Shown: piece by piece, positions 7,353 through 7,895 of the stretch
Layout of the letters: every line of letters starts with the position of its first letter
Position numbering within the stretch: position 1 is the stretch's first letter
Assembly: GCA_017656185.1 (NCBI GenBank)
Contig: JACDOK010000004.1
Span: forward strand, 1-64,000
Origin: Peptococcaceae bacterium
GTDB taxonomy: Bacteria > Bacillota > Desulfotomaculia > Desulfotomaculales > JACDOK01
DNA: 64,000 bases
Reading direction: 5' to 3'
Made by a program: the position numbers and the translations under genes
Notes under the pieces: model-generated
What the model was told of the DNA's origin: nothing
What the model saw: only the letters and a program-made list of their open reading frames with translations
The model's database searches: none

Positions 7353-7895
7353 TCACAAATGGGAAACATGTTCCAATGCGAGTAAACGCTTTTTCCACGC
7401 GAGTCCACCGGTAAAACCGCCCAACCGACCGTTGGCACCTACTACACGGTGTCAAGGTATGACAATGGGTGTCCGGTTGCAGCGCATTACCTGACCTACG
7501 GCACGAGCGGCACCCGGTCGACCGACCCGAACAGCAACATCCCCGTAGGAAACAACGCTGCCGTATGGTATCTCTTTTACCACCCGAAGGACGGCTCTCT
7601 GAAACTCCGTATAACCGTCCATATCAAGGGGTAAATCTTCAAAGCCAACCGGATGGCCTGAGAGGTACTTGTGGAGCAGCCGCACAAGGCTTGTCCACTG
7701 CCTCGTGCTCCCGGTACCGGGAGGCGAGTCCAATATCCCGGCACTCTGCCCGGCATCAACCATTCGGACCCGGGCTAAAGCCGTCACGGCATCAGGCTGC
7801 GGCAGGGATAACGCCCATAAACCGCGTGCAGATAACGCCCCTGCTATCCAACCCCAGTCCGGGACATAAAGCACTTGTGCCCGCAAATGCACCAT
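7353..7895 (-). CDS. ogt: O6-alkylguanine-DNA alkyltransferase with selenocysteine at the active site
   Basis: Direct-reversal DNA repair protein that moves an alkyl group from O6-guanine to its own nucleophile. The frame from ATG 7895 has the family's PYGSVVSYGDVA and GRPGAARAVGQVMRCN and then [11 protein letters not shown], with TGA (7454-7452) exactly where the methyl-accepting Cys of IPCHRV lies. Beyond it the family motifs continue ([20 protein letters not shown]) to TGA at 7353; total 180 residues, Sec148. A hairpin with loop GGTCG starts 15 nt after the TGA. Read conventionally the protein would lack its active site. It is downstream of the GT20 gene by 22 bases and ends 68 bases before gltX. 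Confidence 0.88.
7419..7436 (-). promoter_or_regulatory. Candidate SECIS of ogt
   Basis: Minus strand: GCCAAC, loop GGTCG, GTTGG(G)C, beginning 15 nt after the TGA. Distance and GGTC loop are very close to the E. coli fdhF SECIS. The hairpin lies inside coding sequence that also encodes conserved residues. Confidence 0.75.

Follow-up and report, generated by a model that had tools for sequence, protein, structure and literature searches.

An ogt/MGMT gene from a Peptococcaceae bacterium very probably encodes a genuine selenocysteine-containing O6-alkylguanine-DNA alkyltransferase, in which selenocysteine (Sec) is specified by UGA148 and which, judging from its sequence, would act in a single turnover as the Cys enzyme does. 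The gene is an additional member of an already known family: Sec-MGMTs were catalogued as selenoproteins in GOS 2008 (PMC2398784) and are covered by reviews (PMC9312934, PMC13188914), in line with what the preliminary description had said of earlier reports. New here are the spread of Sec-MGMTs, their multiple placements in the tree and their sole-copy status. The selenoproteins whose function is known are mostly redox enzymes, in which the Sec is used again and again; a suicide enzyme would consume one Sec for every base it repairs. The occurrence of Sec-MGMTs in six phyla, spread over more than a single clade and usually without a second MGMT in the genome, makes the reason for Sec here testable, and the natural enzymes are available for comparison with the engineered Sec145 human AGT.

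The window, i.e. the whole analysed stretch of 64,000 nucleotides, contains the following features:

7353..7895, minus strand: ogt/MGMT gene, 180 aa with the predicted Sec at residue 148; ATG at 7895-7893, stop codon TGA at 7355-7353

7452..7454, minus strand: in-frame TGA (predicted Sec codon), codon 148, at the alkyl-acceptor position of IP[C/U]HRV

7419..7436, minus strand: SECIS-like hairpin core GCCAAC-GGUCG-GUUGGGC, with the loop GGUCG at 7430-7426, beginning 21 nt past the TGA

12918..13856 (approximate; the end is that of the profile match), plus strand: selD (selenophosphate synthetase), with its own in-frame TGA at 12960-12962

The family assignment of the protein is firm. The PF01035 profile covers residues 97-177 (E 5.9e-33, 113 bits vs a cut-off of 27), the NCBIfam model TIGR00589 (ogt) scores 105 bits vs a cut-off of 46.4, and the solved MGMT structures 4wxc, 1eh6 and 1sfe (PDB) align with the protein through the acceptor motif. 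Readthrough translation, with TGA read as U, gives a single internal U, at residue 148 in the motif IPUHRV; the acceptor motif thus reads PUHR, with Sec for Cys, and the active-site Asn and Glu are present. The central claim of the preliminary description, that Sec replaces the suicide Cys of Ogt, is borne out by the alignment, where the TGA column is Cys in 61 of 61 Cys-type homologues, and by the presence of Sec machinery in the genome (see below). The 32 residues past the TGA are 53-63% identical to those of the closest Cys homologues, a level at least as high as that ahead of the TGA, which indicates that this part of the gene is not decaying. A second, intact Cys-type ogt, which would have spoken against the claim, is absent, since the genome, at 2.3 Mb and a completeness of 99.9%, has no other PF01035 gene. 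The neighbours of ogt, named from their translations and not by family search, are gltX and a trehalose-6-phosphate-synthase-like gene. Two tRNA genes (5613-5685 and 5699-5769, minus strand) lie downstream of gltX, adjoining the ogt-gltX stretch, and a c-di-AMP (ydaO/yuaA) riboswitch is found at 18275-18404 of the window (plus strand, 103 bits).

The genome holds a complete set of Sec genes. Besides selD in the window, it encodes a tRNA-Sec (selC) with the anticodon UCA on contig C14, and adjacent selA and selB genes on contig C3. SelD is itself a predicted selenoprotein (motif SSGUAAKIGP). Two further genes, L139 (contig C17) and L140 (contig C1), encode Sec formate dehydrogenases of the FdhA type with an in-frame TGA in RLUHS; both are followed by a hairpin with a GGUCU loop that starts 18 nt downstream of the TGA. 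Within the window's order, selA was found in 58 of 60 genomes. Genome-wide recoding of UGA was discounted, as ogt itself ends in TGA and tRNA-Sec and SelB are present.

The hairpin downstream of the ogt TGA has the GGUC apical loop in common with the Sec-FdhA genes of the same genome, at an offset of 21 nt vs 18 nt in FdhA. Under a criterion that demands this loop, a restriction that was derived from the FdhA genes and imposed after the ogt hairpin had been seen, an equally good hairpin occurs in 20 of 5000 synonymous recodings of ogt and at 27 of 12186 codon positions in the long open frames of the window. With a generic hairpin criterion, it is equalled in 73 of 3000 recodings and at 71 of 2016 codon positions, so that the ogt hairpin taken alone would be moderate evidence for a SECIS. 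Applied to the stretch downstream of the selD TGA, the ogt criterion finds no hairpin with a GG/GU loop, and it is therefore not a complete detector of SECIS elements. Across the family, SECIS-like hairpins are much rarer in the Cys set than in the Sec set, they are far stronger in 36 Sec-MGMT genes than in 61 Cys genes (p 5e-8), and the Sec-MGMT genes exceed their own synonymous recodings more than the Cys genes do (p 3e-8), both values being uncorrected for kinship within the sets.

It is unlikely that the TGA is instead a TGC or TGT miscalled in sequencing or assembly, or that it arose by recent nonsense mutation of a usual Cys-type ogt. This alternative could draw on the other genomes sampled from the window's order, which carry Cys at the acceptor codon and never TGA. 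However, the TGA sits exactly on the one Cys codon that known Sec-MGMTs use, a codon on which a random TGA would rarely land. It is also followed by a GGUC-loop hairpin at SECIS distance and by a conserved frame, in a genome that decodes Sec.

A degenerate pattern, PUHR(V/I)(V/I)...G...(F/Y).GG, was run over 84,980 species genomes and gave 32 matches, 31 of which encode MGMT; the remaining one (L059) is a chance match in a frame of only 31 codons. A sample of 399 genomes from the window's phylum yielded four further TGA-MGMTs, two of them from the same genus, presumably Carboxydothermus. Together with these, there are 35 TGA-MGMT genes beyond that of the window, distributed over Bacillota, Nitrospirota, Nitrospinota, Planctomycetota, Chloroflexota and Fusobacteriota, a number that is a lower bound given the strictness of the pattern. 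The recurrence of the TGA in other genomes, which the preliminary description had put forward as a check, is thereby confirmed across phyla, while a scan of 113 genomes of the window's own order with a short TGA pattern found a TGA-MGMT in none of the other 112. Short-pattern matches did occur in 14 other genomes of the order, none of them in a gene encoding MGMT. In 24 of the 35 genomes, no PF01035 gene other than the TGA one turned up; as most of these assemblies are drafts, some additional copies could have escaped detection. The Chloroflexota genomes of L058 and L071 (G515:C48 and G527:C47) have a second PF01035 gene without a TGA, a frame of ~370 aa on the same contig, about 23-28 kb from the Sec-MGMT; these second genes are possibly Ada-like.

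The history of the Sec form was approached with a tree built from 36 Sec and 61 Cys proteins, 97 in all. About 10 switches of the Sec label are required on this tree, no fewer than 4 of them dictated by well-supported branches, with the caveat that the Cys proteins were picked by similarity to the window's protein, which leaves the kin of the other Sec groups thinly represented. A single clade of all Sec-MGMTs is rejected (p-AU 0.001). The window's gene is placed, with weak support, among the Cys-type genes of its own order. Its union with 16 Sec genes of Bacillota and Fusobacteriota is rejected as well (p-AU 0.006), and that with the Sec genes of Nitrospirota narrowly so (p-AU 0.036), while the test does not reject a grouping with the probable Carboxydothermus pair (p-AU 0.126). 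From this placement and the union tests, the likeliest history, though not a proven one, would be a local change in which Sec replaced Cys in the inherited Ogt gene of this lineage.

Cys-type Ogts of the window's order (such as L014, L012 and L024) are 45-52% identical to the window's protein and have the NRTP signature and all catalytic residues in common with it, but Cys at the acceptor where the window's Ogt has Sec. The two TGA genes of the probable Carboxydothermus pair are about 38-40% identical to it over the aligned part. The entry ABB14497.1, a Sec-containing methylated-DNA-protein-cysteine methyltransferase (COG0350/PF01035), we take to be from Carboxydothermus hydrogenoformans. With the catalogued Sec-MGMT (COG0350/PF01035), the window's Ogt shares fold, family, Sec acceptor codon and bacterial Sec machinery.

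In the mechanism that we propose, SelB and tRNA-Sec would insert Sec at UGA148, aided by the downstream SECIS hairpin, as the machinery and the predicted structure suggest. The selenolate of Sec148, which is ionised at neutral pH, would occupy the place of the Cys thiolate in the Cys-type Ogt and attack the alkyl group on O6 of a guanine that has been flipped out. The alkyl group would then be retained as Se-alkyl-Sec, in a one-shot, self-inactivating reaction like that of the Cys enzyme, to which both the invariant active-site residues and the engineered Sec145 human AGT point. Residues N140, H149 and E175 (human N137, H146 and E172) are invariant across Sec and Cys forms, the lone gap at E175 belonging to a gene cut off at a contig end.

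The preliminary description saw a candidate for an unusual regenerating repair enzyme, i.e. a multi-turnover Sec-MGMT from whose Se a thiol or a partner protein strips the alkyl group, and this part of it finds no backing here. Spending Sec on a suicide enzyme does appear costly, and a selenolate leaves more readily than a thiolate, but dialkyl selenides are not readily cleaved by thiols. Among the 36 Sec forms there is no conserved Cys column (the highest reaches 19%), and hence no conserved resolving residue near the acceptor; the catalytic residues are those of the Cys forms, and no fused or dedicated partner is seen beside ogt. Regeneration is, on these grounds, extremely improbable. It is also very unlikely that Se-alkyl-Sec is dealkylated in the cell, making Sec-MGMTs not strictly suicidal, and that this led to Sec being adopted several times, often in the only MGMT. 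Most likely, the window's Ogt would accept an alkyl group only once, on a selenolate more nucleophilic than the thiolate, and alkyl transfer by the Sec form may plausibly be faster.

An experimental parallel comes from human AGT. With Sec145, it shields E. coli from MNNG with a protection comparable to that of the wild type and, unlike the Cys form, keeps its activity in the absence of N137 (PMC4150793). This engineered protein has Sec at the residue equivalent to that of the window's Ogt and carries out alkyl repair in E. coli, but it is artificial, human and encoded by UAG, whereas the window's Ogt is natural and uses TGA. An MGMT-family counterpart is also known among algal selenoproteins, as MDP (PMC7539508); it belongs by its description to the same protein family as the window's Ogt, but is eukaryotic and has a SECIS type of its own.
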